A stretch of 64,000 nucleotides of DNA from a virus. Positions 7,374 to 36,090 of this stretch are shown one piece after another. Every line of letters starts with the position of its first letter. Within the stretch, counting starts at the first letter, position 1. Below the pieces are notes generated by a model. That model saw only the letters and a list, made by a program, of their open reading frames with translations. It was not told the origin of the DNA and did not search any database. The DNA lies in IMG/VR virus record IMGVR_UViG_3300045976_000088, positions 33,605 through 97,604 of that record, one strand, 5' to 3'. A program made the position numbers and the translations under genes.

Positions 7374-7810
7374 TGCTCTGCCCCATCTGCGGCCGCCCGA
7401 CGCGCCTGCTGCGCACCGAGCCGCTGGAGGTGGGCGCAGTGCGCCACGTGCGCCTGTGCACGATCCCGACCGCGCTGGCGCACCCTCACGTCGAGTTCGA
7501 GACCGTTGAGGTGCTGGCCGCCACGCTGAGCGGCATGGGCGCGACCGCGTTGGCGCGCGAGCTGCACCGCGCGCGCAAGGGGCTGCGGCGCCGCGTCGAG
7601 ACCGAGACCATCCGGCGAAAGACGCTGAAGCTGCTGGCCGCCGGCAAGCGCACGGCGCACGTGGCGCGCGCGGTCGGCATAACCGAGGCCCGTGTTCGTC
7701 AAATTCGAGCAGAAGCGGCCGCTGTGACGGTATCCTCCGCGCATGGTGAACCCGAACCCCAAAGCGAAACCGGACCTGAAGCACGGCAACAGCCACCCGC
7801 TGCGCGCTGA
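7373..7810 (+). CDS. Putative HTH protein with N-terminal CxxC
   Basis: A 145-aa protein. It opens with LCPICGRPTRLL, which recalls the zinc-ribbon start of NrdR-like proteins, but only one later Cys is present so the ribbon is incomplete. Residues 82-110 (LLAAGKRTAHVARAVGITEARVRQIRAE) are a helix-turn-helix of the type used by small terminases and regulators. It overlaps the terminase small subunit by 68 bases, and that gene's promoter lies inside it. It may be a DNA-binding partner of packaging. Confidence 0.5.
   Translation: MLCPICGRPTRLLRTEPLEVGAVRHVRLCTIPTALAHPHVEFETVEVLAATLSGMGATALARELHRARKGLRRRVETETIRRKTLKLLAAGKRTAHVARAVGITEARVRQIRAEAAAVTVSSAHGEPEPQSETGPEARQQPPAAR
7721..7742 (+). promoter_or_regulatory. 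Leaderless-type promoter for terminase small subunit
   Basis: GCTGTGACG at 7721-7729, then TATCCT as the -10 hexamer, with the ATG at 7743 at predicted +1 and C at -1. It lies within the coding region of the preceding gene. No ribosome-binding site. Confidence 0.5.
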
Positions 7811-14935: not shown

Positions 14936-16693
14936 ATGGACAATGCCGCCTCCGTTGCCTTCAATCCAGACGCGCCTGCCGACGAGCGCCGCGACGCCAA
15001 AGCGGAGCTGCAGAAGGCGCATGCCCCAACGTCATCCGACATCGCCAAGAACGTCGGTAACCTGGCGCCCCTGATCGACTTCATCCGGCATCAGGCCGAG
15101 GAACAGGAGTTCCAGAAGTCGCTCACCAAGCAAAACGTGATCCCATTCCCGTCGCTGGCGGTCAAAAACCGCAAGCCCGGCATGCAGTCGGTCACGCTCG
15201 ACGACATGCTGGTGACGGTGCAAGGAGACTGGTACGAGCGCCCTGGCTCGATGCCGTTCGACTCTCTGCGCATGATGGTGCGCGAGACACCGGTGCTTGG
15301 CGCCGTGATCATGCAGCGCATCCGCCAGGTGCAACGCTTCTGCCGTCCGCAGGAGAACGGCAAGGGCTACGGCTTCAAGATCGCGCTGAAGGACAAGACG
15401 GCGCACACCGGCCCCGAGGAGGAGCAGTCCATCGCGCTGCTGCAGGACTTCTTCAGCAACTGCGGCTGGGAGAAGAACCCGCGCGCGCGCCGGCGCCTGA
15501 AGCGCGACGACTTCACGTCGTTCATGGGCAAGCTGGTGCGGGAGTCGCTGACCCTGGACTCGATGCCGATCGAGACGGAGTTCAAGCGCGATCGCAGCCA
15601 GGGCATCGACGGCATGTATGCGGTCGACGGCGCGACGGTGCGGCTGTGCACTGAGCTCGGCTATGAGGGCGACGACGAGATTTACGCCCTGCAGGTGGTG
15701 CAGGGCCAGGTGCGAGCGGTCTACACCTATGACGATCTGATCTACGTCCCACGCAACCCGCTGGCGGACGTGAACGCCGGCGGCTACGGCCTGAGCGAGA
15801 CCGAGTTGCTGGTGCGTACGGTGACGGGCTTCCTGAACGCCTTCACCTACAACACCAAGTTCTTCGACTCGAATCAGATCCCGAAGGGCCTGCTGCACCT
15901 GTCTGGCAACTACGACGACAACGACATCACCGCGTTCAAGCGCTTCTGGAACGCGATGGTCAAGGGCATCAACAATGCCTGGTCGCTGCCGGTGATGGTA
16001 TCGAAGGACCAGGAGTCGAAGGCCACGTTCGAGAACTTCGGTGTCGAGGTCAACGAGATCATGTTCGCGAAGTGGATGGTGTTCCTCGTGAGCATCATCT
16101 GCGCGATCTACGGTATCGCACCCGAGGAGATCAACTTCGAGAGCTTCACGGCCGGCACGAGCTCGCTGAGCGGCGACGACACCGAGGAGAAGCTGGTCTC
16201 GTCGAAGGACAAGGGCCTGCGGCCGCTGTTGAGCTACTTCGAGAACCTGTTCACCGACTACGTGGTCTCGGAGTACGGCGACAAGTACGTGTTCCGCTGG
16301 ACCGGCCTCGACGAGGAGGATCCGAAGTCGGCAGCCGAGCGCCAGAAGCTGTCGATGACGTGGAACGAGATGCGTGCACTCGACGACCTGCCGAAGATCC
16401 CTGGCAAGGTCGGCGACGCGCCGCTCAACCCCGCCCTGCTCGGCGCCTGGCAGCAAGAGAACATGCCGCAGGAGACCGACTTCGGCCAGCCCGGGCAGCA
16501 GCAGCCGCCAGGCGACGACGAGGGTGCGTCAGCCGAGGGCCAGGACTTTGGCAACCCGGGCGACGAGAACGACACCGGCGCCGACTTCGGCCAGGCCGGC
16601 GGCGACGACAGCCAGGGCGGCGGCGACGAGCCTGCCGACAGCGCCACGATGGCGAAGGCCTTCGGCCTGCCGGTGTTCAAAATCGAGCCGTGA
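14936..16693 (+). CDS. Portal protein
   Basis: A 585-aa portal of the HK97/SPP1-type fold, forming the dodecameric DNA gate at one capsid vertex. The body (residues 90-490) shows the usual order: FDSLRMMVRETPVLGAVI helix, the VDGATVRL strand region, YVPRNP loop, and the long helix FWNAMVKGINNAWSLPVM. The NFESFTAGTSSLSGDDTEEKL segment is typical of these portals. The C-terminal 90 residues are an acidic Gly/Gln/Asp-rich tail that ends FGLPVFKIEP. The stop overlaps the next ATG. Confidence 0.85.
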   Translation: MDNAASVAFNPDAPADERRDAKAELQKAHAPTSSDIAKNVGNLAPLIDFIRHQAEEQEFQKSLTKQNVIPFPSLAVKNRKPGMQSVTLDDMLVTVQGDWYERPGSMPFDSLRMMVRETPVLGAVIMQRIRQVQRFCRPQENGKGYGFKIALKDKTAHTGPEEEQSIALLQDFFSNCGWEKNPRARRRLKRDDFTSFMGKLVRESLTLDSMPIETEFKRDRSQGIDGMYAVDGATVRLCTELGYEGDDEIYALQVVQGQVRAVYTYDDLIYVPRNPLADVNAGGYGLSETELLVRTVTGFLNAFTYNTKFFDSNQIPKGLLHLSGNYDDNDITAFKRFWNAMVKGINNAWSLPVMVSKDQESKATFENFGVEVNEIMFAKWMVFLVSIICAIYGIAPEEINFESFTAGTSSLSGDDTEEKLVSSKDKGLRPLLSYFENLFTDYVVSEYGDKYVFRWTGLDEEDPKSAAERQKLSMTWNEMRALDDLPKIPGKVGDAPLNPALLGAWQQENMPQETDFGQPGQQQPPGDDEGASAEGQDFGNPGDENDTGADFGQAGGDDSQGGGDEPADSATMAKAFGLPVFKIEP

Positions 16694-18288
16694 TGAAGCC
16701 ACAGCAGCAGAAGCAGCAGCCCGAGAAGGAGCCCAAGGACGTCGCCGTCGGCGACGAGCTCTACGTGCATCACGGCGGCCAGCCGCACACGTGCCGCGTG
16801 GTCGCGCACGGCCGCCACGGCGTCACGGGCGAGATCGAGGGCAAGCACCACAAGTTCACCTGGGACCGGGTGCTCGGGCACAAGAAGCGCGCGAAGCTGC
16901 GCTACCGCATCACCGACCAGGGCGAGGACGGCATGATCCTGGAGGATCACGCCGGCAACCGCCGCTACCTGGCGACCCCCAACGAGGCAAAAGAGGATCC
17001 CTACGTGGCGAAGGCACTCGACCCGCGGCGCCCGGTGCTGCTGCTCAAGGCTGGCGAACCGAAAGGGCCGACGCGCCCGGGGTTGACCGAAAAGCACCTG
17101 ACCGACAAGCGCGGCGTGCAGACCACGCGCTACGTGCGCACACAGAAGGACCAGCCGAAGCAGCGCCAGCGCGCCGCCAGCGATGCCGAGGCTGGCGCCG
17201 CGCACGGCTACGGCACACACAACCTGAGCGCCGGCGACACCGTGCACTTCGCCGCCGGCGACTTCCAGGGCAGCGGCGTCATCGTCGGCGAGCCCGGCGC
17301 CGACGGCGCGCACGTCAAGGACGCCAGTGGCCGCGTGCACCAGGTGAGGTGGGCCGAGATCACCGGCCACGAGCCGCGCGAGGGCGAGAAGCCGACCGTG
17401 CAGCACGGTGTGCGCGGCGAGCAGAAGCCGATCCCAGCGGACCAGTTCAAGGCGGGCGACTACGCGGCGCAGCACAACGACCCCAACGTGACGCCCGAGG
17501 CGATCCTGTCGCAGTTCCCGCCCGACACAGCCGAGAAGATCCAGGCGGTGCAGGAGCGTCTGAAGTCAGTCGAAGAAACGATCGAGCGGCACAAGCAAGG
17601 CGACGACTACGACGAGAAGCGCAAGGCGCTGCACGTGAAAATCTACGATCACTTCCTCTCGCCGGAGAAGGTGATCGCGGCGACGCCGCCCGAGGGTCAG
17701 AAGCCAACGCTGACGCTGCTGGGTGGCCGCGGCGGCTCGGGCAAGAGCTCGTTCAAGGGCAAGGTCTACGACGAGGCGCATGCGATCGTCATCGACCCGG
17801 ACGAGATCAAGGGCATGCTGCCCGAGTACGAGGGATGGAACGCCCACCAGGTGCACTCAGAGTCGAGCGACATCACCGACGAGATCATCAAGATGGCCCG
17901 CGACTTCGGCTGCAACGTGGTGCTCGATGCCACGATGAAGACCGCCAAGAGCACACTCAAGAAGCTCGACGAGTTCAAAGGCGCCGGCTACCGTGTCGAG
18001 GCCCACTACATGCACCTGCCGCGGCAGGAAGCAGCCAAGCGCGCCGTGCAGCGCTTCCTTGGCAAGACGCAGCGCTACGTGCCGGTCGACGTCGTGCTGG
18101 GCAACACCGAGAACGAGAAGACGTTCGATCAGGTGCGCGAGCACGCCGACCGCTGGTCGTTCCGGGACAACAACGTGCAGCAGGGCCAGGAGCCGATCTT
18201 GATCAGCCAGGGCGGCAAGGATCACGAGGAGCAGCCATTGAAGAAGTCCCTCGGAGCAACTATCCTCTTGGTATGGAAAATGCCATGA
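16693..18288 (+). CDS. Multidomain protein with C-terminal zeta-toxin-type kinase
   Basis: A 531-aa protein. Residues 15-95 and 175-225 are small beta modules of SH3/KOW look (VGDELYVHHGG, AGDTVHFAAGDFQGSGVIVG). A PVLLLKAG motif lies near 114. The C-terminal half has a P-loop GGRGGSGKSS (344-353), then VIDPDEIKGMLPEY, VVLDATMKTAKS and YRVEAHYMHLPRQEA, the order found in zeta toxin, which phosphorylates UDP-N-acetylglucosamine. Head-gene linkage suggests a virion-borne effector. Its substrate is unproven. The ATG overlaps the portal stop. Confidence 0.7.
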   Translation: MKPQQQKQQPEKEPKDVAVGDELYVHHGGQPHTCRVVAHGRHGVTGEIEGKHHKFTWDRVLGHKKRAKLRYRITDQGEDGMILEDHAGNRRYLATPNEAKEDPYVAKALDPRRPVLLLKAGEPKGPTRPGLTEKHLTDKRGVQTTRYVRTQKDQPKQRQRAASDAEAGAAHGYGTHNLSAGDTVHFAAGDFQGSGVIVGEPGADGAHVKDASGRVHQVRWAEITGHEPREGEKPTVQHGVRGEQKPIPADQFKAGDYAAQHNDPNVTPEAILSQFPPDTAEKIQAVQERLKSVEETIERHKQGDDYDEKRKALHVKIYDHFLSPEKVIAATPPEGQKPTLTLLGGRGGSGKSSFKGKVYDEAHAIVIDPDEIKGMLPEYEGWNAHQVHSESSDITDEIIKMARDFGCNVVLDATMKTAKSTLKKLDEFKGAGYRVEAHYMHLPRQEAAKRAVQRFLGKTQRYVPVDVVLGNTENEKTFDQVREHADRWSFRDNNVQQGQEPILISQGGKDHEEQPLKKSLGATILLVWKMP

Positions 18289-18458
18289 TCCCAACCCCCG
18301 AGCAGCGCCCGGACCTGTACGACGGCTACGACTGCCAGGACGTCAAACCGCTGTCGCCGGAGTACCGGAAGACGGCACTCTCGCCGACCCTGCAGAAGAT
18401 GTTGGCAGAGCGCCAGAAGGCAAAGCAGCCCGCGAAGCCGGAAGACAAATCCGAGTAA
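18273..18458 (+). CDS. Small hydrophilic protein
   Basis: A 61-aa product overlapping the kinase gene end by 16 bases. It is hydrophilic (DLYDGYDCQDVKPLSPEYRKT, then a Lys-rich C-terminal helix). ATG 18273 or ATG 18285 could start it; the second has a GGA 8 bases upstream. No motif recognised. Confidence 0.5.
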   Translation: MENAMIPTPEQRPDLYDGYDCQDVKPLSPEYRKTALSPTLQKMLAERQKAKQPAKPEDKSE

Positions 18459-18474
18459 TTCGCATGGGGATTGC

Positions 18475-18492
18475 TTGATCAAATCTGATCAT
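18475..18492. promoter_or_regulatory. AT-rich element before the tRNA
   Basis: TTGATCAAATCTGATCAT, an inverted repeat GATCA/TGATC around AATC, lies 26 bases before the tRNA. It belongs to the same family as 4731 and 14871. Confidence 0.4.
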
Positions 18493-18517
18493 CAGCCCCA
18501 CAATCGACCCCATCGAC

Positions 18518-18594
18518 AGCGGTGTAGCTCAGCCAGGTAGAGCAGCGGGTTCATACCCCGCGGGTCGCAGGATCGAAGCCTGCCACCGCAACCA
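18518..18594 (+). tRNA. tRNA-Met (CAT), mixed initiator/elongator features
   Basis: The cloverleaf is complete: acceptor ending CACCGCA-A-CCA (CCA encoded), D stem GCTC/GAGC, anticodon stem GCGGG/CCCGC with loop TTCATAC, a 5-nt variable loop, and T stem GCAGG/CCTGC with loop ATCGAAG. The GGG/CCC pairs next to the anticodon and the unpaired 1:72 position (A:A) are hallmarks of initiator tRNA. The D stem has the C11:G24 pair of elongators. Lysidine-modified tRNA-Ile2 also has a CAT anticodon and cannot be excluded. Confidence 0.85.
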
Positions 18595-18619
18595 GATTCC
18601 TTCACCACACGGAGATCAC

Positions 18620-18802
18620 GTGAGCACCTTCACCCCCAAGCTCAACAAGCAGGTCAAGTACCGCACGCAGCGCGGCAACACGGGCACCGGCAAGATCAAG
18701 GAAATCCCGCCGGCGGGCGTGAACGGCCAGTTCATCCACGTGGTGGACTCCACCTCCAAGAAGCTGCTGAAGCTGCGTCCGGCGCAGCTGAGCGCGGCCT
18801 GA
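18620..18802 (+). CDS. 60-aa basic beta-rich protein
   Basis: GTG 18620 follows GGAG with a suitable spacer. The product (KLNKQVKYRTQRGN, GTGKIKEIPPAG, QFIHVVDSTSKKLLKLRPAQL) has the look of a small SH3-like or KOW-type barrel and is basic. It sits between the tRNA and the structured non-coding region, so an RNA-binding role is tempting but not shown. Confidence 0.6.
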   Translation: MSTFTPKLNKQVKYRTQRGNTGTGKIKEIPPAGVNGQFIHVVDSTSKKLLKLRPAQLSAA

Positions 18803-19080
18803 GCAAGAACGCAAGCGCCCGAGAAGGGCAGACGCTGAAGCGGCCGCGCGAAGTGAGCGGCGCCGGTTCGCAACCGGCATGAGAGCGCGAGGGGCTGGGC
18901 CTGACAATCCAGCCTAACCTCAGTGTGGCAAGACACGGCCGCGAGCGACGGCGCCACTCTGTAAACCCCGTCAGGGGGAAAGTGTCTAGGCCAACGCAGG
19001 CCGCGGGCGTCACCCACCGGCTGCGGAAACCGTGAACCTGGTGCACGAGCGGTGAGACCCCGCGCCGGAGACGTAACCGG
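18803..19080 (+). ncRNA. Structured non-coding region, first part
   Basis: About 280 bases without a credible gene. Many stable stems are visible. GCCC/GGGC spans 18817-18829 around GAGAA, nested in AGCG/CGCT. GCCGGTT/AACCGGC is at 18862-18878. GAGG-GGCTGG pairs with CCAGCC-TAA-CCTC at 18889-18921. GTGT/ACAC is at 18923-18936, CCCC-GTCA-GGGG at about 18966, CACCGG/CTGGTG at about 19015-19042, and GCCGG/CCGGC at 19064-19081. The density of stems suggests a folded RNA, but I cannot match it to a known class. Confidence 0.5.
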
Positions 19081-19197
19081 CACCCTCACGCATGCGGATT
19101 GGCGTGGCCGTAAGTCGGGAATTGGAAGACCGACCTTGAAAGCATAGGTGCGCCTTGCGGGTTCGAGCCCCGTCGCCAGTCCGCAGTCGTGAGGGTG
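19081..19197 (+). ncRNA. Degenerate tRNA-like element in CACCCTCAC/GTGAGGGTG arms
   Basis: Outer arms CACCCTCACG (19081-19090) and CGTGAGGGTG (19188-19197) pair perfectly. Inside, GCGGATTGGCG pairs with CGCCAGTCCGC (19094-19104 with 19174-19184, one G-T wobble or more). T arm GCGGG-TTCGAGC-CCCGT (19157-19173) is canonical. A D-arm-like GTCGG/CCGAC hairpin carries GAATTGGAAGA, recalling tRNA-Leu. About 8 extra bases before the D arm and an oversized anticodon loop mean it cannot be a normal tRNA. Confidence 0.5.
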
Positions 19198-19261
19198 GAA
19201 GTTAAGCGGAAGCGCTGCCGCATGGTGATCTGTGTTCGCCGCGTCCTGGCTCGCGACCAGG
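19198..19261 (+). ncRNA. Linker RNA between cassettes
   Basis: Holds GCGG/CCGC and CCTGG-CTCGCGA-CCAGG, a 5-bp stem with a 7-base loop like an isolated anticodon arm (CGC). The upstream GTGAGGGTG arm can pair with the next CACCCTCA, giving an alternative fold. Confidence 0.35.
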
Positions 19262-19348
19262 CACCCTCAGCCTTCACGCATGCGCCTGGATAGGGGCCGT
19301 ACCCCCGAAGTCTGTACGGGGCCTCCCTTGCCGGGAGCTGGGCGCAGT
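19262..19348 (+). ncRNA. Second arm-bracketed RNA cassette
   Basis: CACCCTCA (19262-19269), a GCCT insertion, then CACGCATGCGCC, closing with GGGCGCAGTCGTGAGGGTG. Inside, GCGCCTGG pairs with CTGGGCGC. GGCC-GTAC pairs with GTAC-GG-GGCC around a loop, and CTCCC-TTGCC-GGGAG mimics a T arm. The same outer-arm sequence as the first cassette implies duplication. Confidence 0.45.
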
Positions 19349-19474
19349 CGTGAGGGTGGAGCGCACCACGGGTTGGCGCCGTGGTAGTCCTGTTTCATGG
19401 GCTTACATCTCAACTCCTCCTTTCTTGTTGACGCTGCCGCATGCGAGGCGCGCCACCCTCAACCATGATCAAAA
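19349..19474. other. Non-coding gap with third CACCCTCA repeat
   Basis: No gene. CGCATGCG recurs at 19438-19445, and CCACCCTCA at 19453-19461 can pair with TGAGGGTGG at 19341-19349. A pyrimidine-rich AT-containing stretch (19404-19428) separates them. ATGATCAAAAATCGTGACG begins at 19464. Confidence 0.4.
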
Positions 19475-19496
19475 ATCGTGACGCTACTCTGTGCGT
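19475..19496 (+). promoter_or_regulatory. Phage promoter before gene at 19516
   Basis: ATCGTGACG at 19475-19483 with hexamer TACTCT; predicted start 19497 leaves a 19-nt leader with TTGGAG before the ATG. Confidence 0.5.
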
Positions 19497-19515
19497 CTCA
19501 ACCCTTGGAGATCCC

Positions 19516-19752
19516 ATGTCCATCACCTCCGTTGTCGACGCCATCAAGGCAAAGGCCGAAGCCGATCTGTCCGTGTTCAAGGCCGAGCTCGTCGGCTTCG
19601 AGCACCACGTCGAATCGATCTTCAGCCTGGGCGTGAAGTACGCCGCCGAACACCTCGGCTTCAGCGCCGCCGAAGCGCAGGCCCAGCCCGAGCAGACCGC
19701 CGCCGCGCCGCAGGCCACCGAAGGCGCCGCCACCGAAGCCTCGGCGAGCTGA
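19516..19752 (+). CDS. 78-aa helical protein
   Basis: ATG 19516 with TTGGAG 6 bases upstream. Residues 1-50 are an amphipathic helix (VVDAIKAKAEADLSVFKAELVGFEHHVESIF), and the C-terminal 30 residues are an Ala/Glu/Gln tail (EAQAQPEQTAAAPQ). It is followed after 19 bases by another helical protein with an Ala/Pro tail, and the two may be partners. No function recognised. Confidence 0.6.
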   Translation: MSITSVVDAIKAKAEADLSVFKAELVGFEHHVESIFSLGVKYAAEHLGFSAAEAQAQPEQTAAAPQATEGAATEASAS

Positions 19753-19771
19753 TCGCCAACAGGGAGGAGAT

Positions 19772-20158
19772 GTGTTCTCCGACCACCACGCGCTCGAACG
19801 CATCGAGCACATCGTCACCACCATCGAAAGGATGGAACGCTTCATCATGACCGCTCTCGAAGACCTGCAAGCATCGACCGCCGCCCTCGTGCAGAAAGTC
19901 GGCGCACTCGAAACCCTCACGAACTCGCTGAAGTCGCAGCTGGACACCCTGGCGAACGCCGGCGGTGCCACGCCCGACCAGCTGAACGCGCTGAAGGCGC
20001 AGATCGACGCGGCCGCGCAGGGCGTGGACGCCACGATCGCCGCCGACTCGCCGGCCGCGCCCGCGCCGGCCCCGGCCCCCGCTCCCGCGCCGGCCCCGGC
20101 GCCGGCCGACCAAGCTCCCGCCGCCGGCGCCGGCCAGGCCGCCACACCCGCGGCCTGA
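19772..20158 (+). CDS. Coiled-coil protein with (Ala-Pro)n tail
   Basis: A 128-aa protein. GTG 19772 follows GGGAGGAG closely. Residues 1-85 form a heptad-like coiled coil (ERIEHIVTTIERMERFIMTAL, then LVQKVGALETLTNSLKSQLDTLA). The tail is a run of Ala-Pro dipeptides, a stiff extended rod, ending in Ala/Gly. A later ATG at 19850 would give a shorter form. A strong terminator follows. Such rods can act as spacers on virions, but the location is unknown. Confidence 0.6.
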   Translation: MFSDHHALERIEHIVTTIERMERFIMTALEDLQASTAALVQKVGALETLTNSLKSQLDTLANAGGATPDQLNALKAQIDAAAQGVDATIAADSPAAPAPAPAPAPAPAPAPADQAPAAGAGQAATPAA

Positions 20159-20172
20159 TTGCGTGTTCGCAG

Positions 20173-20200
20173 AGTCCGGGCCTTCGGGCCCGGGCTTTCT
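20173..20200 (+). terminator. Rho-independent terminator
   Basis: AGTCCGGGCC pairs with GGCCCGGGCT (20173-20182 with 20187-20196) across a TTCG loop, followed by TTCT. It closes the two small genes upstream. Confidence 0.75.
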
Positions 20201-20205
20201 GATCA

Positions 20206-20435
20206 GCGCCAGCACGCTGACATTGATCAGAGAGCTCACCGCAACCGCGGCTTGGCCCCGCGGGTGATTTGCGTGCATGCACGCACACGGCACACAACGC
20301 TGCCTCATGCGAGTGCGGTGGGTTCTCGACTGGTAGCACCTTCACAGAAGCGGCGTCAGGGTCTGGATGGGTACGGCGCTGCACCTGCATGCCAGGCCCG
20401 CTTCTGTGAGGGTGAATGCGCAGGCTGATGCGCGA
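20206..20435 (+). ncRNA. Structured non-coding region with 17-bp hairpin
   Basis: No gene fits. CACCTTCACAGAAGCGG (20337-20353) pairs with CCGCTTCTGTGAGGGTG (20398-20414), 17 bp with one G-T. Inside, GGTCTGG pairs with CCAGGCC. The outer bases reproduce the CACC-TTCAC/GTGAGGGTG arm of the cassettes near 19.1-19.3 kb. GTGCATGCAC and other short palindromes precede it. Confidence 0.45.
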
Positions 20436-20634: not shown

Positions 20635-21330
20635 ATGGAACTCCTCAAGCACTTCGACCGCAACACCGCGGGCCGCGACCTGATCGTCGGCGACGTCCAT
20701 GGTTGCTTCACCAAGCTGCAGGCCGCGCTCGACGCGCTGAAATTCGACCCCGCGCGCGATCGCCTGTTCTCCGTCGGTGACCTGGTGGACCGCGGCCAGG
20801 AATCCGACGACGCCACCGAGTGGCTGGCGAAGCCATGGTTCCACGCGGTGCGCGGCAATCACGAGCAGATGGCGATCGACTTCGCGGCCGGCTTCGGCGA
20901 CCCGCGCCTCTACATGATGAACGGCGGCGCCTGGTTCATCGGCCACCCGAAGTCGCACCAGCAGTGGATGGCCGACCAGTTCGCCGCGCTGCCGATCGCG
21001 ATCGAGGTCGAAACCGAGCACGGCCTGGTCGGCATCGTGCACGCCGAGTGCCCGACGATCCGCTGGCAAGACCTGCGCGATGCGCTGACGGGCCCGGCAT
21101 CCGACGGCTTCCAGCAGCTGTGCATGTGGTCGCGCGACCGTATCACGGGCGAGCTCGTCGATCACACCGAGGGCGTCAGCGCGGTGATCGTCGGCCACAC
21201 GCCGGTAGAGCGCTGGATCACGCTGGGGAACACGATCTACATCGACAGCGGCGCGTGGCTGCCTCCGCACCGCGGGGATCGTCCGTTCACCATCCTCGAC
21301 GCCGCCACGCTGCGCCCTGCGCAGTCGTGA
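20635..21330 (+). CDS. PPP-family serine/threonine protein phosphatase
   Basis: A 231-aa metallophosphatase close to lambda phosphatase in size. Motifs are complete: GDVHG (19-23), GDLVDRG (48-54), GNHE (74-77), a VGIVHAECP His, and VIVGHTPVE near the end. These bind the two metal ions and the phosphate. It removes phosphate from Ser/Thr/Tyr of proteins or from bis-phosphorylated nucleotides. It lies alone between two non-coding stretches, with a leaderless promoter. Confidence 0.9.
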   Translation: MELLKHFDRNTAGRDLIVGDVHGCFTKLQAALDALKFDPARDRLFSVGDLVDRGQESDDATEWLAKPWFHAVRGNHEQMAIDFAAGFGDPRLYMMNGGAWFIGHPKSHQQWMADQFAALPIAIEVETEHGLVGIVHAECPTIRWQDLRDALTGPASDGFQQLCMWSRDRITGELVDHTEGVSAVIVGHTPVERWITLGNTIYIDSGAWLPPHRGDRPFTILDAATLRPAQS

Positions 21331-24457: not shown

Positions 24458-27400
24458 ATGATCATCTTCCTCAAAAAATCGCAGTTCGCGCTGTTCGACG
24501 CTCCTGTGCACGTGGCGCCCCACGTGCGCAAGGATGGCGTGGTCGTCGCCGCCCACACGCGGATCCAGAAGGTGCGGCCGAAGGCGCCGGCGCCCCAGCA
24601 GCGCACCCTGTTTGGCGACGAGCAGGAGAAGCAGAAGCGCTCGAAGCTGGACGCCTGGATCGCCAAGCATGGTGGCTTGCGCGCGATCGCCAGCATCCTG
24701 GCAACCGTCACCGAGGGCCAGCAGCAGCACCTGTTCGATCTGATGGCGAAGCTGGGCGGCAAGACGCCGGCCGAGATCGCTTCGATGTTCGATGGCCTGG
24801 CCGAGAAGGCGCCGGAGAAGGGCGAGACACCGGACCTGTTCGCGCAGCCGGCGGCCACGGAGAAGCCGGCCGAGGCGCCTGCGCCGGAGCCGAAGAAGAA
24901 GCGCGCGCCGCGCAAGGCGAAAGAGACCGAAGCCGACACCCGACAGTCAGAGGTGGCGTCCGCGATTCGGGCAGCAGTCGGCTCCTCCTCGCCGCTCGGT
25001 CGGCCGTTCCCGATCACCGTGTCATTTGGCGGTCGCGAGCAGCGGTTCATGGCGCGCATCGACGCGCTAGCGCGCGGGAAAAACAAGGGCGCCATCCACC
25101 TCATGCAGGTCGTGCAGGGACGCATCGTCAAGGGTGATGAGGTTGGGCCGATTGCGCGCTACTTCGTGCTGACGGGAAAGGACGAGCTCAAAGACGACAA
25201 GCAACTGCCGCACCGCGTCAGCGACGAGGAAAAGGCGAAGTTTGACCAGGCATTCCAGGCTGCACAGCCCGAGCCAGCCCCGGTTCCAGCACCAGCCCCG
25301 CACGACCGCGACGCTCCGTTCGGCGTAGCCGCCGGCATCACCAAGGCCGCGCGCCGCGAGATCAACGCCGAGGTCGCGCGCCTGGTGGCCGAGGGCCAGG
25401 TCGACAAAGACCTGTTCCGCCAGTACAGCGGCAACGGTGGCTGCGGCGACAGCCTGAACGAGTATTACACCGACCCCGACGTGGCGCGCGCGATGTGGGA
25501 CGTTCTGGCGCGCCTGGGCGCCGAGCACGGTACAGCGCTTGAGCCGAGCTGCGGCACTGGCGTGTTCCTGCACACCGCGCCGGCCGGCTTCCGCGTCACC
25601 GGCGTCGAGCTCGACCCGACCAGCGCGGCGGTCGCGCTGGCGCTGCACGGCGACCGGCACGAGATCAACACCGCGAGCCTGGAGCGCTTCGCGACGACCG
25701 ACGATCGCCAGTTCGACGTGGTGATCGGCAACCCGCCCTACGGCCCGCGCGGCTTCCTCGCGAAGGATGACAAGGTGGGCATGACGACCGCCGAGGCCTA
25801 CTTCTGCGACACCGCGCTCGACAAGTGCAAGCCGGGCGGCCTCGTCGCGCTGGTGGTACCCACCGGCATCATGGACAGCAGCCGCAACCGCAGCCTGCGC
25901 GAGCAGCTGCTGGTGAAGGGCCAGTTCCTCGGGGCGCTGCGCATGCCGAACACCGCGTTCGAGCACTCGCACACCGAGGTGACAACCGATGTCGTCTTCC
26001 TGCGCAAGCGCCCCGACGACGTGGTAGGCGCGCTGCAGACCGTACCGCAGGAGAAGTTGCAGCAGCTGGGCGTGTGGGACGATGATTTCCTGGCTGGTAC
26101 CTACTTCACCGAGGGCCGCGGCGCCGGCAACGTGCTGGGCACGCTGGAGGCCGGCTGGCGCGCGAAGGCCGGCATCGGCAACGACATCACAGTGACCGGA
26201 TCGATGGCCGGCGTCCCCGAAGCCATCCGCGAGTTCGCGCCGCATCCCGAGAGCGTTGGCGTGGCCGACCTGACGGTGCCGCAGATCCTGGAGGCGTTGC
26301 CAGAGGGCGCGATGCGCGACGCGGCGCTGTCTGCATCGTTCCGGCGCCCCTACACCAACACCGCCAAGATCGGCGACACCAAGACGGTCGATGGCGTCAC
26401 CTACGTGCTGCAGGGCAACCCGCCGCGCTGGCACCGGGTGGACGAGTTCATGGCGACGACAGCGGTGGCCGACGCCGCGCCGCTGGCGGCTCGCATCGAG
26501 GCGGCCATGGACGGCGGCGACCGTGAGGGCCTGGCCGAGGCCGTGCGCGCCTACGTCGAGCAGCACGGCATCCCGGCCGACAACCCCGAGCTGATGACCG
26601 CGGCCAGCGTCGACAAGACGCTGTTCCGCCTGGTGGGGGCCGTGAACCGCAAGGGCGAGCTGTCCGATGCCGTGCTCGGCCGCGCGCCGCGCAAGATCGA
26701 AGGCAGCTTCGAGACGCAGGCCGAGGCGCTGGCTCTCGACGAGAAGCGCAGCTTCACAGCCGACGAGCTCGCCGAGCGTGTTGGACGCGACGTGGACTCG
26801 GTGGTCGACCAGCTGACCGCTGACGCACGCTACGCCTACCTGGGCGATGGCCGCTGGACCACCATGTCGGCCTACCTGACCGGCGAGCTCTGGCCCAAGC
26901 TGGACGCCGCGCGCGCCGCGTTGGCGGCCGGCGCCGGCGAACTGCAGGGAAAGCTGGAGCAGCAGGCCAAGCGCCTGGAGGAGACGATTGCGCCGCGCGC
27001 GCTCGATGAGGTCGATTTTCAGATCAACAGCGCGTTTCTGCCGCTGCACGTGCTGGAGGCGTTCTTCAACTGGCGCCAGTTCGACGGCCCCGAGGCGAAC
27101 GAGTGGACGCGCAAGCAGCCGCCGATCTCGATCAAGTTCGGAGATGGCGTCTACACGATCGAGGGCGGCCTGTCCTGGAGCACCAGCAAGCTGCTGGACA
27201 AGTACCTCAACCGATCCGGCGTCAAGAAGGACGAGAAGCCGGAAATCGACAGCCTGAACGAGGAGTTCAAGAGCTGGCTGTGCGGCAGCCAGTACCGCGA
27301 TGCGGTCGAGGAGCTTTACAACCGGAAGTTCCGCGGCTACGTCGGCGAGGACTACAGCGACGCTCCGATCGACGTGCCGGGCCTGACCACCGACCGCGAC

Positions 27401-30400
27401 GTGCGCAAATGGCGCTGGTCGAGCCTGCGGCGCTCCCTTGCGACCGGCAAGGGCATCGTGGCCGACGACGTGGGCCTTGGCAAGACGCTGGGCGGCCTGC
27501 TGCTCGCTCGCATGGCGAAGATCGACGGGCGCGCCAAGAAGCCGATCATCGTCGTGCCAAAGTCGGTACTCGCCAACTGGTACAGCGAGACGCAGACCTG
27601 GTTCCCGAGCTCGCGCGTGCTCACCATCGGCGCCAACTTCAGCGAAGGCAAAGACGGCGAGCTCGTCGGGCGCGACGACGATCCGATCGAGCGCAAGCGC
27701 AAGTACCACGACCTGACGCAGAACGATTACGACTTCGTGATCATCAGCGAGCCGGCGTTCGAGGAGGTCGACCTTAACCCCGAGCTCAAAGAGGGGTACT
27801 ACAGCGACGATTTTTGGGTGCAGCGCGGCGACAAGCTGGGCAACGCCGGCGACAAGCGACGCAAGCGCATCAAGGAGCAGTACGAGCAGTCCATCGCCTC
27901 GCGCGAGTTCCAGGACCGCACCGACGCGATCTACTTCGACCAGCTGGGCGTCGACATGCTGCTGGCCGACGAGATGCACCACCAGAAGAACCTCTACGCC
28001 GCCAAGGCGCGCTTCGGCGAGCAACCGAAGTTCCTCGGCGGCCAGGGCCTGTCGAACCGCGCGCTCGACTTCAACCTCAAGACGCGCTGGGTGCGCGAGC
28101 AGAACGATGGCAAGGGCGTCTACGGCCTGACGGCCACGCCGACCAAGAACAGCCCGCTCGAAATCTACTCGATGCTGTCGCACGTAGCGCCCGAAGCATT
28201 CGAGAAGATCGGCGTGCGCAACAGCGAGGAGTTCCTGGACCGCTTCTGCGAGTTCACGAACGACAAGGTTCTGTCGACCAGCGGCGACATCGAGGATGCG
28301 CTGGTGGTGTCGGGCTTCAAGAACCTGACCGAGCTGCGCGAGATCATGGCGCGCTTCATCGACCGCCGCACCGCGGAAATGGTCGGGCTTGAGCTGCCTA
28401 AGCGCGACGACAAGCTGCACCTGGTGGGCATGACACCCAAGCAGGAGGAGGTCTACGCCAGCCTGCGCGAGCTCGCGGCCGAGGCCAAGGAGAAGGACTC
28501 CACGGGCGACGCGCACATCTTCTCCGTGATGGACAAGATGAACAAGGCGGCGCTCGACCTGGCGCTGCTCGGCGCCGAGCATGCCGGCGCGCGCAGCCCG
28601 AAGTACGACGCGATCGCCACGCAGGTGAAGGCGGGCCTGAAGGATGGCGCGCAGATCGTCTTCAGCGAGTACATCGACTCGCACGACCGGTTGGTGGCCG
28701 CGCTGGTCGACGCCGGCGTGCCGCGGAACCGCATCGGTGTGATCAACGCGAAGGTGGCGAGCAGCGCCGTGAAGCGCCAGAACATCGCCGAGGCGCTGAA
28801 CAACGGCAAGCTCGACGTGGTGATCGGCAATGCGACGATGGCCGAAGGCCTCAACATGCAGAAGCGCACCACCGACATCCACCACGCCGACGTGCCGTGG
28901 GAACCGGCGACGCTGCAGCAGCGCAACGGACGGGGCCTGCGTCAGGGCAACTACAACGAGGCCGTTCGCATCCACACCTACCTGTCCAAGGGCAGCTTCG
29001 ACGGCTACCGGTACCAGGCCGTGCGCGCTAAGAAGGACTGGCAAGACCTGCTATGGAACGGCGGAGATCGCGTCGAGAACCTGGCGCGCGAGGGCCAGTT
29101 CAGCCGCGAAGACCTGAACATCATGCTGGCGGCCGACCCCGAGGCAGCGCGCGCCGCCTACGAGAAGGACAAGTCCGCGGCGCAGCAGCGCTATGACGCC
29201 GGCCAGCGCCAGGCCGCGAACGAGCAGTTCGTGCGCTTCCAGGATATGACGCGCAGCTACGGCGCGCTGAAGAACAAGAACACCGCGAGCGCGACGCGGC
29301 TGCGCCAGAAGCTGGAGAGCGCGAAGACGGCGCTGTTCAACAACAAGTATTTCACCCACAAGCCGGCGCTCGACAGCGCGACCGACGTGCTGATCGAGCC
29401 GAGCAGTGGCACCGCGCTGCACGCTGGCGTCGGCCTCGACTACGGCAAGGAAGGCCGGTTCGTCGTGTCGGGCGTCAACGCGCGCGCAGGCACCGTGACG
29501 ATGCGGCGCTACGCCGAGGTGAGTGGTGGCAGCGCGGTGACGGTGCCGCTGAGCGAACTGGCTTCTGGCATCAAGCCGTTCGCGGTCGACAAGGACGCCG
29601 AGGCGGCCGAGGTGCGCGTCAAGCTGGAGAGTGCAGCAGCCGAGAAGCTGAACAGCTTGAAGTCCTGGGACGATGTGAAAACCATGCCATCTTCGGTGCT
29701 GGAGGCGAACCACGACCTGATTCAGCGACAGATCAAGGAAGGCGCCAAGAGCTACAAATTCAGCATGCCTTACGGCTCGGTTCCCATGGTCGACAAGCAG
29801 ACCGGTGAGCTCAAGATGGTTGAGAGCTACGAGCACACCAAGCTGCACGACACGCACGACTACTTGCTGCCGACCGAGGCGGCTAAGGAGAAGGCAATCC
29901 AAGCGTGGATGCAGGCCCGGCGAGAGGCCGAGGTCGGCAGCGAGTACGTGCACACTGGCAAGGGACGCAGCCAGAAGTCGACCCGCATGACGGCGCGCAC
30001 CTACAAGGGTGCCAGGTACGACGCGCGCACGCGCAATCCATTCACCGGTCTGCTGGGCGAGCTTGGCGGCAAGTCGTCCACCTACGGCGTCGACGGGCCG
30101 CTGGTGAAGGAGGCAAAGCGCCGCCTTGAAGTTGAGCAGCTGCATCGAATCAAGCACGCCGGCAGCCTGGAGGGCATCGTCGACGCTCTCGTGCCGCTTG
30201 CGAAGCTGGAAGGCAGCGAGAGCAGCATGGTCGCGCGCTACCCGGAAAAGGCGCTGGCATCGGCCTGGGCGCGCGCGCGCCATCTCGGGCTGCTCGACAA
30301 GCCGATGCCGCGCGGCAAGCACGGACACTACGCCGTCGGCCAGGCGACCGCATACGGCGCGCCGGAGCGCAGTGCTCACAACGCGCTGGTGCAGCTCGCC

Positions 30401-30748
30401 GCGGCCGCCGGCAGGCACGACCTGGCCGAGGCGATGGTTGCCAGCGCGGAGCGGCACGCGCAGCATGTCAACACGCCGGAGACCGCATCGGTGCTGACCA
30501 AGCACTACACGCCGAACACGCGCCGCCTGCGGCAGATCCGCGCGATCGCCGAGCGGCATGGGATGGCCGACAAGACGCTGGGGCAGTTGCGAGAGCACCG
30601 GCTGGGCGGCAACTTCTCGGTGCCGAGCGGCTACGGATATGACCCGGTTGGCATGCGCAACCAGGGCACAACGTTCATGGATAAGTGGAACGAACTCCAC
30701 GACCTGGCGAAACGCCGCGAGGCCGAGCCGCAGAAGGAGGCCGCATGA
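24458..30748 (+). CDS. Giant polyvalent protein: N6-methyltransferase + SNF2-like helicase (DarB-like)
   Basis: A 2096-aa protein. The N-terminus (MIIFLKKSQFALFDAP) resembles those of other phage head-linked proteins. Then comes a Lys/Ala/Pro linker. An adenine-methyltransferase domain has motif I LEPSCGTG at 361-368 and motif IV NPPY at 425-428. An SF2/SNF2-type helicase has DDVGLGKT around 1003-1010, DEMHH at 1171-1175 and QRNGRGLRQG near 1487. The C-terminal 600 residues are helical. The order matches P1 DarB-type proteins, which are packaged and protect injected DNA from restriction. No internal stop or frameshift. Modifying or remodelling incoming DNA is inferred. Confidence 0.85.
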   Translation: MIIFLKKSQFALFDAPVHVAPHVRKDGVVVAAHTRIQKVRPKAPAPQQRTLFGDEQEKQKRSKLDAWIAKHGGLRAIASILATVTEGQQQHLFDLMAKLGGKTPAEIASMFDGLAEKAPEKGETPDLFAQPAATEKPAEAPAPEPKKKRAPRKAKETEADTRQSEVASAIRAAVGSSSPLGRPFPITVSFGGREQRFMARIDALARGKNKGAIHLMQVVQGRIVKGDEVGPIARYFVLTGKDELKDDKQLPHRVSDEEKAKFDQAFQAAQPEPAPVPAPAPHDRDAPFGVAAGITKAARREINAEVARLVAEGQVDKDLFRQYSGNGGCGDSLNEYYTDPDVARAMWDVLARLGAEHGTALEPSCGTGVFLHTAPAGFRVTGVELDPTSAAVALALHGDRHEINTASLERFATTDDRQFDVVIGNPPYGPRGFLAKDDKVGMTTAEAYFCDTALDKCKPGGLVALVVPTGIMDSSRNRSLREQLLVKGQFLGALRMPNTAFEHSHTEVTTDVVFLRKRPDDVVGALQTVPQEKLQQLGVWDDDFLAGTYFTEGRGAGNVLGTLEAGWRAKAGIGNDITVTGSMAGVPEAIREFAPHPESVGVADLTVPQILEALPEGAMRDAALSASFRRPYTNTAKIGDTKTVDGVTYVLQGNPPRWHRVDEFMATTAVADAAPLAARIEAAMDGGDREGLAEAVRAYVEQHGIPADNPELMTAASVDKTLFRLVGAVNRKGELSDAVLGRAPRKIEGSFETQAEALALDEKRSFTADELAERVGRDVDSVVDQLTADARYAYLGDGRWTTMSAYLTGELWPKLDAARAALAAGAGELQGKLEQQAKRLEETIAPRALDEVDFQINSAFLPLHVLEAFFNWRQFDGPEANEWTRKQPPISIKFGDGVYTIEGGLSWSTSKLLDKYLNRSGVKKDEKPEIDSLNEEFKSWLCGSQYRDAVEELYNRKFRGYVGEDYSDAPIDVPGLTTDRDVRKWRWSSLRRSLATGKGIVADDVGLGKTLGGLLLARMAKIDGRAKKPIIVVPKSVLANWYSETQTWFPSSRVLTIGANFSEGKDGELVGRDDDPIERKRKYHDLTQNDYDFVIISEPAFEEVDLNPELKEGYYSDDFWVQRGDKLGNAGDKRRKRIKEQYEQSIASREFQDRTDAIYFDQLGVDMLLADEMHHQKNLYAAKARFGEQPKFLGGQGLSNRALDFNLKTRWVREQNDGKGVYGLTATPTKNSPLEIYSMLSHVAPEAFEKIGVRNSEEFLDRFCEFTNDKVLSTSGDIEDALVVSGFKNLTELREIMARFIDRRTAEMVGLELPKRDDKLHLVGMTPKQEEVYASLRELAAEAKEKDSTGDAHIFSVMDKMNKAALDLALLGAEHAGARSPKYDAIATQVKAGLKDGAQIVFSEYIDSHDRLVAALVDAGVPRNRIGVINAKVASSAVKRQNIAEALNNGKLDVVIGNATMAEGLNMQKRTTDIHHADVPWEPATLQQRNGRGLRQGNYNEAVRIHTYLSKGSFDGYRYQAVRAKKDWQDLLWNGGDRVENLAREGQFSREDLNIMLAADPEAARAAYEKDKSAAQQRYDAGQRQAANEQFVRFQDMTRSYGALKNKNTASATRLRQKLESAKTALFNNKYFTHKPALDSATDVLIEPSSGTALHAGVGLDYGKEGRFVVSGVNARAGTVTMRRYAEVSGGSAVTVPLSELASGIKPFAVDKDAEAAEVRVKLESAAAEKLNSLKSWDDVKTMPSSVLEANHDLIQRQIKEGAKSYKFSMPYGSVPMVDKQTGELKMVESYEHTKLHDTHDYLLPTEAAKEKAIQAWMQARREAEVGSEYVHTGKGRSQKSTRMTARTYKGARYDARTRNPFTGLLGELGGKSSTYGVDGPLVKEAKRRLEVEQLHRIKHAGSLEGIVDALVPLAKLEGSESSMVARYPEKALASAWARARHLGLLDKPMPRGKHGHYAVGQATAYGAPERSAHNALVQLAAAAGRHDLAEAMVASAERHAQHVNTPETASVLTKHYTPNTRRLRQIRAIAERHGMADKTLGQLREHRLGGNFSVPSGYGYDPVGMRNQGTTFMDKWNELHDLAKRREAEPQKEAA

Positions 30749-31071
30749 TCGACCCCAAGACCTTCGCAGCCAGCACGCTGCAGCTGCTGCAGCAGGATCC
30801 GCGGCGCTACCGCAACTTCGGCTGTTACTGGTGGCTGGTGAAGGCGCTGCTGAAGCAGTTCTACACGCGCGACAACCTGCATCTGCTGGGCGACTACAGC
30901 GACCCGGAGGCTATGGAGCGCATGCCGGCGCACACAGACCTGCAGGAGGCTCTGGCGGCCGCGATCAATGAGTACCAGGCCAACGCCAGCTATGGCGCCG
31001 GCGCCGTCGAAGTGCCAGACCAGGCCGGCGGCGGCACGTTCTTGCTGGTGGACCCGGATGCCACGTCCTAG
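30745..31071 (+). CDS. Small acidic helical protein
   Basis: A 108-aa protein with ATG overlapping the stop of the giant gene (ATGA). Aromatic-rich helix RYRNFGCYWWLVKALLKQFY, then acidic helices and a Gly-rich end. It is placed so as to be co-translated with the helicase-methyltransferase. It might be a chaperone or partner, but no family is recognised. Confidence 0.55.
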   Translation: MIDPKTFAASTLQLLQQDPRRYRNFGCYWWLVKALLKQFYTRDNLHLLGDYSDPEAMERMPAHTDLQEALAAAINEYQANASYGAGAVEVPDQAGGGTFLLVDPDATS

Positions 31072-31174
31072 AATCTCCCCACGGCCAGCGCTTCCGCTGC
31101 GTCGTCGATCCTGACCCGGACCAGAAGGCGGGCAATCCCCGGGCAAAGGTTCACCACCCGCAATCGAGCGCACA

Positions 31175-31204
31175 GGGGCCGCCTTCGGGCGGCTCCGTTC
31201 TTTC
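31175..31204 (+). terminator. Rho-independent terminator
   Basis: GGGGCCGCC pairs with GGCGGCTCC across a TTCG loop (31175-31183 with 31188-31196), followed by GTTCTTT. It ends the preceding unit four bases before the next promoter motif. Confidence 0.65.
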
Positions 31205-31207
31205 CGG

Positions 31208-31229
31208 GTCGTGAGGCGATCATGCTGGC
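31208..31229 (+). promoter_or_regulatory. Leaderless-type promoter for 1513-aa gene
   Basis: GTCGTGAGG at 31208-31216, hexamer GATCAT, C at -1, ATG 31230 at +1. Directly behind a terminator; no Shine-Dalgarno. Confidence 0.55.
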
Positions 31230-34200
31230 ATGAAGCCGGTTCTCCTCCTGAAATCGAAGATCCCCGAGGGGGCCCGCTGGATCACGGTGCACCCCAACGG
31301 CCCCGGCACCGAGGGCCAGCCGGTGCTGATCCAGCCGAACCCTGACGGCACCGCGCACGTGATCGGCGGCGCCGGTGGCAAGCTCAACTACCTGAAGCTC
31401 CGCGGCGTTCGCAAGGAAAGCGAGTACAAGCGCGAGGCCGAGGAGCGCAAGAAGGCAAGGACCGAGGCGGCGAAGGAGCAGCGCCAACGGGACAAAGAGG
31501 CCGGCATCCTGGAGTCGAAGAACAAGGCCCGGGAGAACCTGCGCCTGCAACAGCGCCAGCACGAGCGCGAGTTCGTCGAGACGGTGGGCCGCGCGCTCGG
31601 CTGGGATCCGAAGGAGATGCAGTTCCCGGAGGAGGACTACGCGCACCTGTCGGATGCCGCGCAGGCCAAGCTGCGGCAGAAGTTTCACCGGCAGCTGATG
31701 CAGCGAGCCAACGAGGCCATTGAGCTGCAGCGCCAGCGTCTGGTGACCGACAGCGCGGCGCGCATGCAGGCTGGCATCGGCGAGGTGCCGCTGACCGCGC
31801 GCGACGACTCCACCCTGTCGGTGCAGGATCTTGCGCCCATCCAGGAGAACCCCGGCGGCTTGGGTTTCGCGCAGGACTTCAAGAAGCGCGCGGAGGCGGC
31901 AGGCGCCGGCGAGGAGGAGATCAAGGCCGAGGCCGACAAGCTGAAGCAGGCTAAGCAGCAGCAGCTGAGCGAGGGTCAGCGCCGTGCGGCGGTCGATCGT
32001 GGCGAGACGGCGAAGCTGGTCAAGCAGGAGCTGCAGGGCATCCGCGAGCCGGCGGCGCCGAAGGCTACCGCCGACCTGGCCGACGCCAAGCGGGCCGTCG
32101 AGCTCATGAAGGCGCGCAAGAAGCTGCAGCAAATCCAGCAGAAGGCGCGCGCGGCCGCCGCCGAGATCGACAAGTCGGCCACCGAACCGAAGGCCTACGT
32201 GCTGCAGTACGAGGCCGAGCCGGACGAAAAGCTCGACGCGAAGATCGCCGAGGAGGTCAACAACGACCTGCGCACAGTGCAGACCCTGGCGTTCCTGTCG
32301 GAGGTTCAGCGCTTGGCCGGCGGCGACCCCACCGAGACCCTTGGCAAACACATTGGCATCGGCGCCTACAACTCGGTCAACTCGCTGGCGCTGGCCGTCG
32401 GCGGCGATGCGCTGGTCGACCGGTCGGTGGTCGACGTGCTGGGCATCGCCGGCGCCGCGCAGGTGCTCGCGCGCCGCATCCACGGCGACCTGCCGGACCA
32501 GGTGGAGCGCATCACCGAGGGGGTTCAGGATTTCCACCTGCACCACTACATGGACACCAGCACCGAAGCGCTTGCGCAGGCGCAGGAGCTGATGGACGCG
32601 GCGAAGGAAATCGAGCTGGGCGAGGCCGCCAATGGGGCCGACCTGCAGGTGGCGCAGGAGCTCAATTCGCGCCGGCGCCGCGCCATCGGCGACGCGCAGA
32701 AGATCCTCGGCCAGGCACTTGGCGAGATGGAGGCAAACGCCGCGCTGGTGGTTGCGCTGAAGCAGGGCCGTAAAGACTCTTTCCAGGTCAGCCTCGGCAA
32801 GGCCAGCCCGGAGGCTGCGATCACGCAGGCGCGCGCGATCGGCCTGCAGCGCGGCGACTACACCATCGAGCACGTCGCCGGCGACACGTTCCTGACCGTC
32901 AACGGCGCCGGCCTCGACCGCCTGGCGAAGCCCGTCAACCGCGCAGACCTGGAGCAGGTGCAGCGTAACCTGGCAATCATCCGCGGCGACCACGACGAGG
33001 AGGATTGGCTGCCGGAAGGCGTCGCGCGGCGACCTGACCTGGTGATGGACGTCAAGCCCGGCGTCGCGCCGCGGCTCGCGCAGCCGTTCGCGCCAAGCGG
33101 CGACCTGGAGCAGTCCCTGCGCGACTACATCGGCGGCCGCGCAGCCGACGGCGATGCGCCAGGCGACATCGTGGCCGACATCCAGTCGGCCGACTTCTTC
33201 CAGCGCGTGGGATTCGATCGCGCCGAGGCCTACCGCCAGGCGCTCGATGCCGTGGCGCCGCTCAAGGACGCCGACGGCAACCAGCAGCGCGCCGAGGCAC
33301 TGGCCGAGCACTTCGACCGGTTGGCCGACGATTTCGTGCAGCGCCATCACGGTGGCGAGCGCTCGACGCTGAACAAGCAGGCCTTCGACGTCGACGACAA
33401 GGCCACCGACGCGCTGCACCGCGCCCTGGCCGAGCACCCTGAGGGCGTGGCAGCCTACAAGCAGATCGGCGAGCTCACACACCAGGACCAGCGCGCGCTG
33501 CGCGAGTTCTTCCACGCGAACATCGCCAAGGAATCGCCCGAAGCAACCGCGCTGCGCCGCGATCTGGAGCAACACCAGGCCAACGAGCCGGAGCGCGAGA
33601 CCACGGATATGTTCGGCGAGACCGTGCCGAATCCCGAGCACGGCGAGTGGCGCGCGCGCCACGACGAGCTGTCGACCAAGGTCAACGCTTCGTCGCTGAA
33701 CTGGGCGAAGTACGCGGAAGCCATGGGCGGCCACGAGCGCGCCTACGAGGTGGTGCAGGACTTGATCAAGTCGCGCGTTGGCCGCGCGTTCGCCGACCAC
33801 TACAACCGGCTGAACCCCGGCAAGCCGCTGAAGGTCGGCAAGTCCGTCATCCGCAACAACCTGCACCACCTCGACGCCACCGACCCCGAGGCGCGCGAGC
33901 GGCGCGAGCAGCAGCACCGCGCGCTGGTCGACAGCCTGCGCGAGCGGTCGCAGGGCCGCTACGCCGCCGGCAGCGTCAGCGAGAAGCTGGATGCGGCGCG
34001 CGAGCAGCGCGAGGCCTTCGAGCAAGCGCAGATGGGGTTCTTCTCGGCCGAGGAGGCGCCGCAGGCTGCGGCCGCCGACAAGCCAATCGAGCTATCCGGC
34101 GATGAGCGGCACACCATCGGCCACGTGGCCGAGCGCCAAATCGCCGGCATGATGGGCAAGGTGGGCGCCAACTTCAAACCCGGCAAGCCGCTGCGCCTGT

Positions 34201-35771: not shown

Positions 35772-35783
35772 GACACTGCGCCC

Positions 35784-36044: not shown

Positions 36045-36066
36045 CCACGCTACCGGTGGACCCGTT

Positions 36067-36090
36067 GGCCGCTTTCGAGCGGCCTTTTTT
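36067..36090 (+). terminator. Rho-independent terminator
   Basis: GGCCGCT (36067-36073) pairs with AGCGGCC (36078-36084) across a TTCG loop; TTTTTT follows. Confidence 0.88.

Follow-up and report, generated by a model that had tools for sequence, protein, structure and literature searches.

A modular array of bracketed noncoding RNA cassettes, with apparently exchangeable inserts, beside a phage tRNA gene

Results

The array and its surroundings

The window, i.e. the whole 64-kb stretch of DNA that was analysed, is part of a 97.6-kb phage contig in IMG/VR. Its portal protein is closest to that of Bordetella phage PHB04 (68%), then to those of Aeromonas phage ST4 and Pseudomonas phages Dolphis and Jeremy; closer relatives are present in IMG/VR, i.e. 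L024 (99%) and L021 (81%). A tRNA-Met (CAT) gene at 18518-18594, plus strand, was identified by ARAGORN and by Rfam (RF00005, 55.7 bits), and is followed on the same strand by a 60-residue ORF of unknown function (18620-18802), which L024 shares at 100% identity and L021 at 78%, and for which Pfam and PHROG searches gave no match. This ORF flanks the array but is not part of it; the RNA region begins at its stop codon, the noncoding region proper being 18803-19462 on the tRNA strand. The preliminary description had placed some 650 gene-free bases after the tRNA; 18803-19462 is indeed untranslated, but the 60-residue ORF intervenes. No promoter-like site was found within 18200-20300, so transcription of the array from upstream is assumed.

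Among the neighbouring genes, the protein encoded after the portal (16690-18285) has a zeta-toxin/P-loop kinase domain (Pfam, 5e-25) and a weaker match to a polynucleotide kinase PHROG. Just downstream of the array, 20635-21327 encodes a NinI-like serine/threonine phosphatase (PHROG 246, E 9e-69), a gene similar to which is located after the portal in PHB04. The RNA ligase RtcB, which is found in PHB04, is absent from the window contig.

Anatomy and predicted folding

From 5' to 3' on the plus strand, the array comprises a variable domain, a motif here termed M, cassette 1, a linker, and cassettes 2 and 3. With blastn the variable domain (18803-19041) could be matched to neither L024 nor L021, and in L024 its place is taken by unrelated sequence. 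Direct comparison with L021 identified a hairpin within it, GGCTGG-GCCTGACAAT-CCAGCC (18893-18914), the L021 counterpart of which, CGCCGG-GCCTGACGAT-CCGGCG, differs by two compensatory pairs and has nearly the same loop. Motif M (19042-19083) is a 42-nt double hairpin, consisting of ACG, hairpin 1 (19049-52/19060-63) and, abutting it, hairpin 2 (19064-19081), GCCGG-AGACGUAA-CCGGC, in which the loop AGACGUAA is strict. Cassette 1 (19081-19197) has the 5' arm CACCCTCACGCATGCGG (19081-19097), an insert (19098-19180) and the 3' arm CCGCAGTCGTGAGGGTG (19181-19197). The linker ends in a hairpin, CCTGG-CTCGCGA-CCAGG, followed by CAC (19245-19264), a layout that matches hairpin 2 of M with its CAC. 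Cassette 2 (19269-19358) is built likewise of AGCCTTCACGCATGCGC (19269-19285), an insert (19286-19341) that is identical in L024, and GCGCAGTCGTGAGGGTG (19342-19358). In cassette 3 (19351-19461), TGAGGGTGGAGCGC (19351-19364) pairs with GCGCGCCACCCTCA (19448-19461), the two strands being 93% complementary.

The predicted outer helix of cassette 1, CACCCTCACG/CGTGAGGGTG, is a perfect 10 bp, and is followed by a 3x3 internal loop (CAT/AGT) and 11-12 further pairs; the calculated fold (-62.9 kcal/mol, z -5.1) was equalled by none of 200 shuffles. Cassette 3 also folds better than expected (z -3.1), values for M are modest (z -2.0), and cassette 2 folded alone is unexceptional relative to shuffles (z -1.1). 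Since the whole 678 nt is only slightly above chance (z -1.8), the argument for structure is drawn from the arms and from comparison across relatives. The 5' strand of cassette 3 overlaps the 3' arm of cassette 2, so the helices of cassettes 2 and 3 are mutually exclusive. These results bear out much of what had been noticed from the letters alone: the repeats of CGCATGCG are correctly located at 19089, 19277 and 19438, the two cassettes do share pairing arms, perfectly over 10 bp in cassette 1 and with one U.G pair in cassette 2, and the suggested alternative arm pairing is made possible by the third bracket (19351-19364/19448-19461), which lets the GTGAGGGTG strand pair either upstream or downstream. 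Motif M, the most conserved element of the array, and the limits of the third bracket had been missed.

The insert of cassette 1 is tRNA-like, if degenerate, with an extended acceptor-like stem alongside a T-arm-like hairpin, GCGGG-TTCGAGC-CCCGT (19157-19173), that fits the pattern with a 5-bp stem. ARAGORN makes no tRNA call in this insert, even with introns allowed, and neither ARAGORN nor Rfam detects a canonical cloverleaf in any cassette of the window, the only tRNA being the tRNA-Met outside the array.

Searches for known RNA families

The Rfam covariance models gave no hit to the array, in keeping with the earlier impression that it belongs to no known class, GOLLD included; neither GOLLD nor ROOL matched at the gathering score, or at E<5 in the window stretch. 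Across the loci of 21 relatives and the window, Rfam returned only tRNA, permuted tmRNA, beta_tmRNA, anti-hemB and Burkholderiales-2, none of them in the window array. Permuted tmRNA was sought in the array with both RF04321 and ARAGORN without a match; it is present in PHB04 and L027. Searching the region with blastn gave, among the matches listed, only the tRNA in phages, and nothing in plasmids. No description of the array was found in the open-access literature searched, subscription papers being outside the search.

Covariation and replacement in close relatives

Arm covariation was assessed with seven cassettes from five contigs (the window, L024, L021, L188, which is a Mesorhizobium MAG, and L212, an otherwise different 39.9-kb IMG/VR contig), a small sample in which the 14 arm pairs were aligned by eye. 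Over these cassettes 92.9% of arm positions are paired, and the covariation score is 0.347, as compared with a mean of 0.177 for shuffles and no more than 0.135 for controls with slid partners. Both sides have changed in 7 of the 14 pairs, a result that upholds the reading of the region as structured cassettes, for which compensatory change among relatives had been proposed as the test.

Comparison of the window with L024 bears on exchange. The 2 kb upstream is 98.7% identical, and the tRNA-Met and the 60-residue ORF are 100% identical; there is then no detectable similarity over 18803-19041, M is 87% identical, and the cassette 1 inserts lack homology, after which identity is 100% over 19184-19480, the right-hand border falling at the 3' arm of cassette 1. 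Judged by sequence comparison only, the L024 block at 18803-19041, together with its cassette 1 insert, is an unrelated replacement with the same anatomy. When the 3' arm CGCAGTCRTGAGGGTGG was searched for, L024 was the only real case; the other four matches were rejected by eye as coding-like or otherwise unrelated.

Distribution and conservation of motif M

A 17-nt pattern taken from hairpin 2 was used to search IMG/VR for M, the matches being taken from the listing. At least about 120 stretches carry it, and M occurs in over 100 phage contigs, P1 among them. In nearly all of the noncoding matches listed, an ACG and a hairpin 1 that differs in sequence, both outside the search pattern, are correctly placed. 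M and the enterobacterial loci described below were retrieved by pattern, and identity within the searched patterns is thus by construction. A covariance model (R1) built from 31 sequences, the window sequence included, gave a sole strong match in the window (61.5 bits, E 4.5e-13). Over the 31 sequences hairpin 1 has changes on both sides at 4 of 4 pairs (score 0.189 versus 0.061). Variation in hairpin 2 was left out as evidence, being partly selected by the search pattern; this hairpin does vary in relatives found through the portal protein (L014, L022, L024). A variant pattern with a GCGC loop gave mostly coding matches and a single genuine M, in the L027 contig. In nearly all genuine copies the 5' ACG could pair with CGU of loop 2; L027 has the compensatory combination GCG/CGC and several copies have GCG/CGU, while an unbiased scan was noisy, and the pseudoknot is offered as a suggestion only.

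M appears to be a phage element. Infernal found one copy per M-bearing phage record searched, with two in one prophage, and a scan with strict filters of 397 other Pseudomonadota genomes, sampled evenly, found none. Phage P1 carries M between Pban and its tRNA genes, upstream of tRNA-Asn, and at least three different tRNAs fill the position after M among P1-like phages; M is also present in Bordetella, Jilinvirus and Skatevirus phages. A tRNA lies within 1 kb of M on the same strand at 19 of 101 loci and on the opposite strand at 2 of 101, as compared with 0 of 106 control positions. As read by eye, M of Jilinvirus directly follows a sigma70-like promoter (TTGCAG-N17-TAGAGT) and precedes a terminator, and in the Skatevirus relatives there is a sigma70-like promoter just upstream, together with a terminator-like sequence.

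Some further features were noted at M loci. In L186, an Aliidiomarina contig, M (7653-7693) is ~60 nt upstream of a CsrA-like gene. Long untranslated leaders precede M in L188, L197, L006, L204 and L180 and have motifs in common, e.g. GGAAAGCGGATGC...GCAGCGAGTAGGAGG...GGGAGAACCGT. Permuted tmRNAs accompany tRNAs and M in the phage noncoding tracts of L006 (PHB04, MF663786; 1762-2133) and L027 (512-915, minus strand), with RF04321 scores of 104.5 and 124.8 bits, respectively; the PHB04 record leaves its tmRNA unannotated.

Enterobacterial arrays with other arm sequences

In phages LPST10 and ECO1230-10, ACACAACAGGCAAGAGC follows M. A search with the 5' arm from this sequence found 104 IMG/VR stretches, in nearly all of which the 3' arm CAGTGCTCTTTCCGTTGT, which was outside the search, is present downstream, giving cassettes of ~70 to 210 nt. 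The 97% arm identity of these cassettes is largely by construction and was unused as evidence; matching changes do occur on both arms of some cassettes, one example being L243 (AAGGGCG with CGCCCTT). At 75% identity the 68 distinct cassettes fall into 42 insert families, and between families identity is ~46%, the level of unrelated sequences in global alignment. A module of ~100-200 nt is shared, at 94-97% identity, by phages that otherwise differ.

The alternative pairing of a middle arm recurs here in unrelated letters, as CACAAC...GTTGTGG...CCACAAC, extending what had been inferred from the window alone; the third strand is present in 48 of 55 arrays, versus 8 of 55 for a reversed control. 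Outside called tRNAs there are 20 T-arm-like hairpins in the sense direction and none in the antisense direction, the shuffle sets averaging 0.125 each. In three cases a tRNA-like body carries an insert at or near the anticodon arm, again with none antisense and none in shuffles; these are in L246, L278 and L307, where the inserts are of 16 to 49 nt.

The enterobacterial element is present in 181 annotated phage records (from Salmonella, Klebsiella, Escherichia, Cronobacter, Erwinia and others), and nearly all of the matches listed in them overlap no annotated feature. A search of the E. coli genome with a composite query returned nothing. The settings vary: in mEp390 it lies in the left early operon, in phiEt88 between Q and tRNA-Phe, and in Sergei among structural genes. 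A second cassette type that recurs, GGTGAATGCGCAGGCTGATGCGCG...GCCGGAGATCAGCACCGGCCACCAC, was seen in L235, L254, L277 and L180, either in the leader or downstream of cassette A, and also in a betaproteobacterial prophage; the loops of its two hairpins are complementary to each other (GGCUGAU and AUCAGC), as if mimicking the D-loop/T-loop contact of tRNA. The enterobacterial arms, e.g. at L170 2520, include CACAACA, which is the GcvB R1 target given for AgvB (PMC4104026).

Discussion

The available evidence makes it very probable that 18803-19462 is a modular, covarying and exchangeable noncoding RNA locus, in which M and a run of bracketed cassettes are located beside a tRNA gene. To judge from the related loci, arrays laid out in this way but with different arms are widespread among phages of beta-, gamma- and some alphaproteobacteria, and whole payload blocks are apparently replaced by unrelated ones between near-identical phages. 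The combined proposal, that the array is an expressed, exchangeable scaffold for payloads, is assigned a probability of about 0.5, expression being inferred in the absence of transcript data. The array would be transcribed together with its operon, and the conserved stems would act as scaffold and handles through which folding or processing may occur, though there are no processing data. It can further be inferred that the shared middle arm selects its upstream or downstream partner during transcription or processing, such switching being undemonstrated, and that the variable, often tRNA-like inserts may be the active part, i.e. the payload. A point against this explanation is that the contexts differ, including early left operons, late operons, structural genes and units with their own promoter; such variety nonetheless fits a mobile accessory RNA, rather than one with a single defined regulatory role.

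Two known components of phage genomes bear comparison. The cassette array resembles phage tRNA arrays in place, strand, T-arm-like hairpins and exchange between phages; by contrast with these, the cassettes are mostly not called as tRNAs, have inserts that are mostly mutually unrelated, and possess additional bracketing stems. Permuted tmRNA (RF04321) likewise occupies the same noncoding tract in PHB04 and, in L027, lies close to M, but the window array lacks an Rfam hit to it. The array could be no more than the functionless remains of tRNA and tmRNA genes that have decayed at a recombination hotspot, as the degenerate tRNA-like inserts, adjoining tRNAs and permuted tmRNAs of relatives might suggest, but the compensatory changes in arms and M, the conservation of arms across unrelated phages, and the dedicated promoter-like and terminator-like sequences read by eye in Jilinvirus and Skatevirus make this very improbable.

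With respect to M itself, the alternative that survives best, though we consider it unlikely, is that it works as an antitermination or leader RNA of the put type, acting on RNA polymerase to enable read-through of long untranslated or folded stretches such as tRNAs, tmRNA and cassettes. The put element of phage HK022 consists of two long stem-loops over ~70 nt (PMC9378689), and M likewise has two adjacent hairpins in phage transcripts, precedes tRNAs, and in several prophages occurs early in recombination or early operons, e.g. before exonuclease VIII/RecT in L165 and downstream of Pban in P1, with nearby ORFs that by eye resemble YqaJ and RecT. M is, however, shorter, at 42 nt, has a strict AGACGUAA-type loop and is often directly before a tRNA; no GGAGACGTA-type element is present in the HK022 segment searched (25000-40000), which gave only two unrelated matches, GGAGACG/GAGACGT. 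Moreover, in Arya and HeidiAbel M opens a short unit that ends at a strong terminator ~200-250 nt later, and a put-like role for M leaves both the swapped inserts and the bracketing arms unexplained.

The inserts might instead be base-pairing small RNAs, i.e. antisense RNAs or anti-sRNA sponges, presented on a common scaffold, as with the prophage RNAs AgvB and AsxR. These join a conserved 3' part to a variable part at lambdoid moron sites, are 51-60 nt long and are bound by Hfq (PMC4104026); the combination of conserved and variable parts at phage accessory-gene sites is like that of the array, and the CACAACA of the enterobacterial arm is the GcvB R1 target (PMC4104026). By contrast with AgvB and AsxR, the array has bracketing stems. 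The inserts are mostly self-paired, CACAACA in the enterobacterial arm has a structural partner within the same RNA, and the window arms do not contain it, so that this explanation is rather improbable.

An even less probable reading takes the array as a single large ornate RNA, its core conserved and its arms variable, that forms multimers as do GOLLD and ROOL. The setting is similar: GOLLD occurs in phages near tRNA islands and contains a variable region in which tRNAs may lie (PMC12286853), and the array too is a structured phage noncoding RNA, rich in stems, beside a tRNA (the window tRNA-Met at 18518). Set against this are the absence of a GOLLD or ROOL covariance-model match in the window or its relatives at the gathering score, and the combinatorial build of the loci, which range from M with one tRNA, as in P1, to several independent bracketed cassettes with unrelated inserts, so that neither the core nor its length is fixed.

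If the scaffold reading is correct, the question arises as to what the payloads do. Phage tRNAs are known to act against tRNA-cleaving defences. The tRNA mimicry, the placement by tRNA genes, the replacement between sibling phages and the unrelated inserts on a fixed scaffold are as expected of fast-turnover antagonists, and from these it can be inferred, tentatively and without direct evidence, that the inserts, themselves replaced quickly, act as RNA decoys for, or antagonists of, a host factor that binds or cleaves RNA, e.g. a tRNA-targeting defence. It is possible, but doubtful on present evidence, that proteobacterial phages share a natural RNA display system, in which conserved mix-and-match stems, some of them tRNA-shaped, carry swapped payloads that disarm RNA-targeting defences of the host.

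The lack of an Rfam match, of annotation in phage records and of a description in the open literature suggest that the array is categorically new as an RNA class, a conclusion to be drawn with caution, because evidence of expression is lacking and only open-access literature was covered. If it is correct, a widespread class of phage noncoding RNA has gone unrecognised, including upstream of the tRNA genes of the textbook phage P1, with rapid payload turnover on a conserved scaffold as its signature. Were the payloads to be anti-defence RNAs, the arrays would be the RNA equivalent of anti-defence islands made up of protein genes, and would offer a natural scaffold on which structured RNAs can be presented. 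If they are not, M would still be a compact, phage-restricted RNA element that can serve as an annotation marker for such loci.
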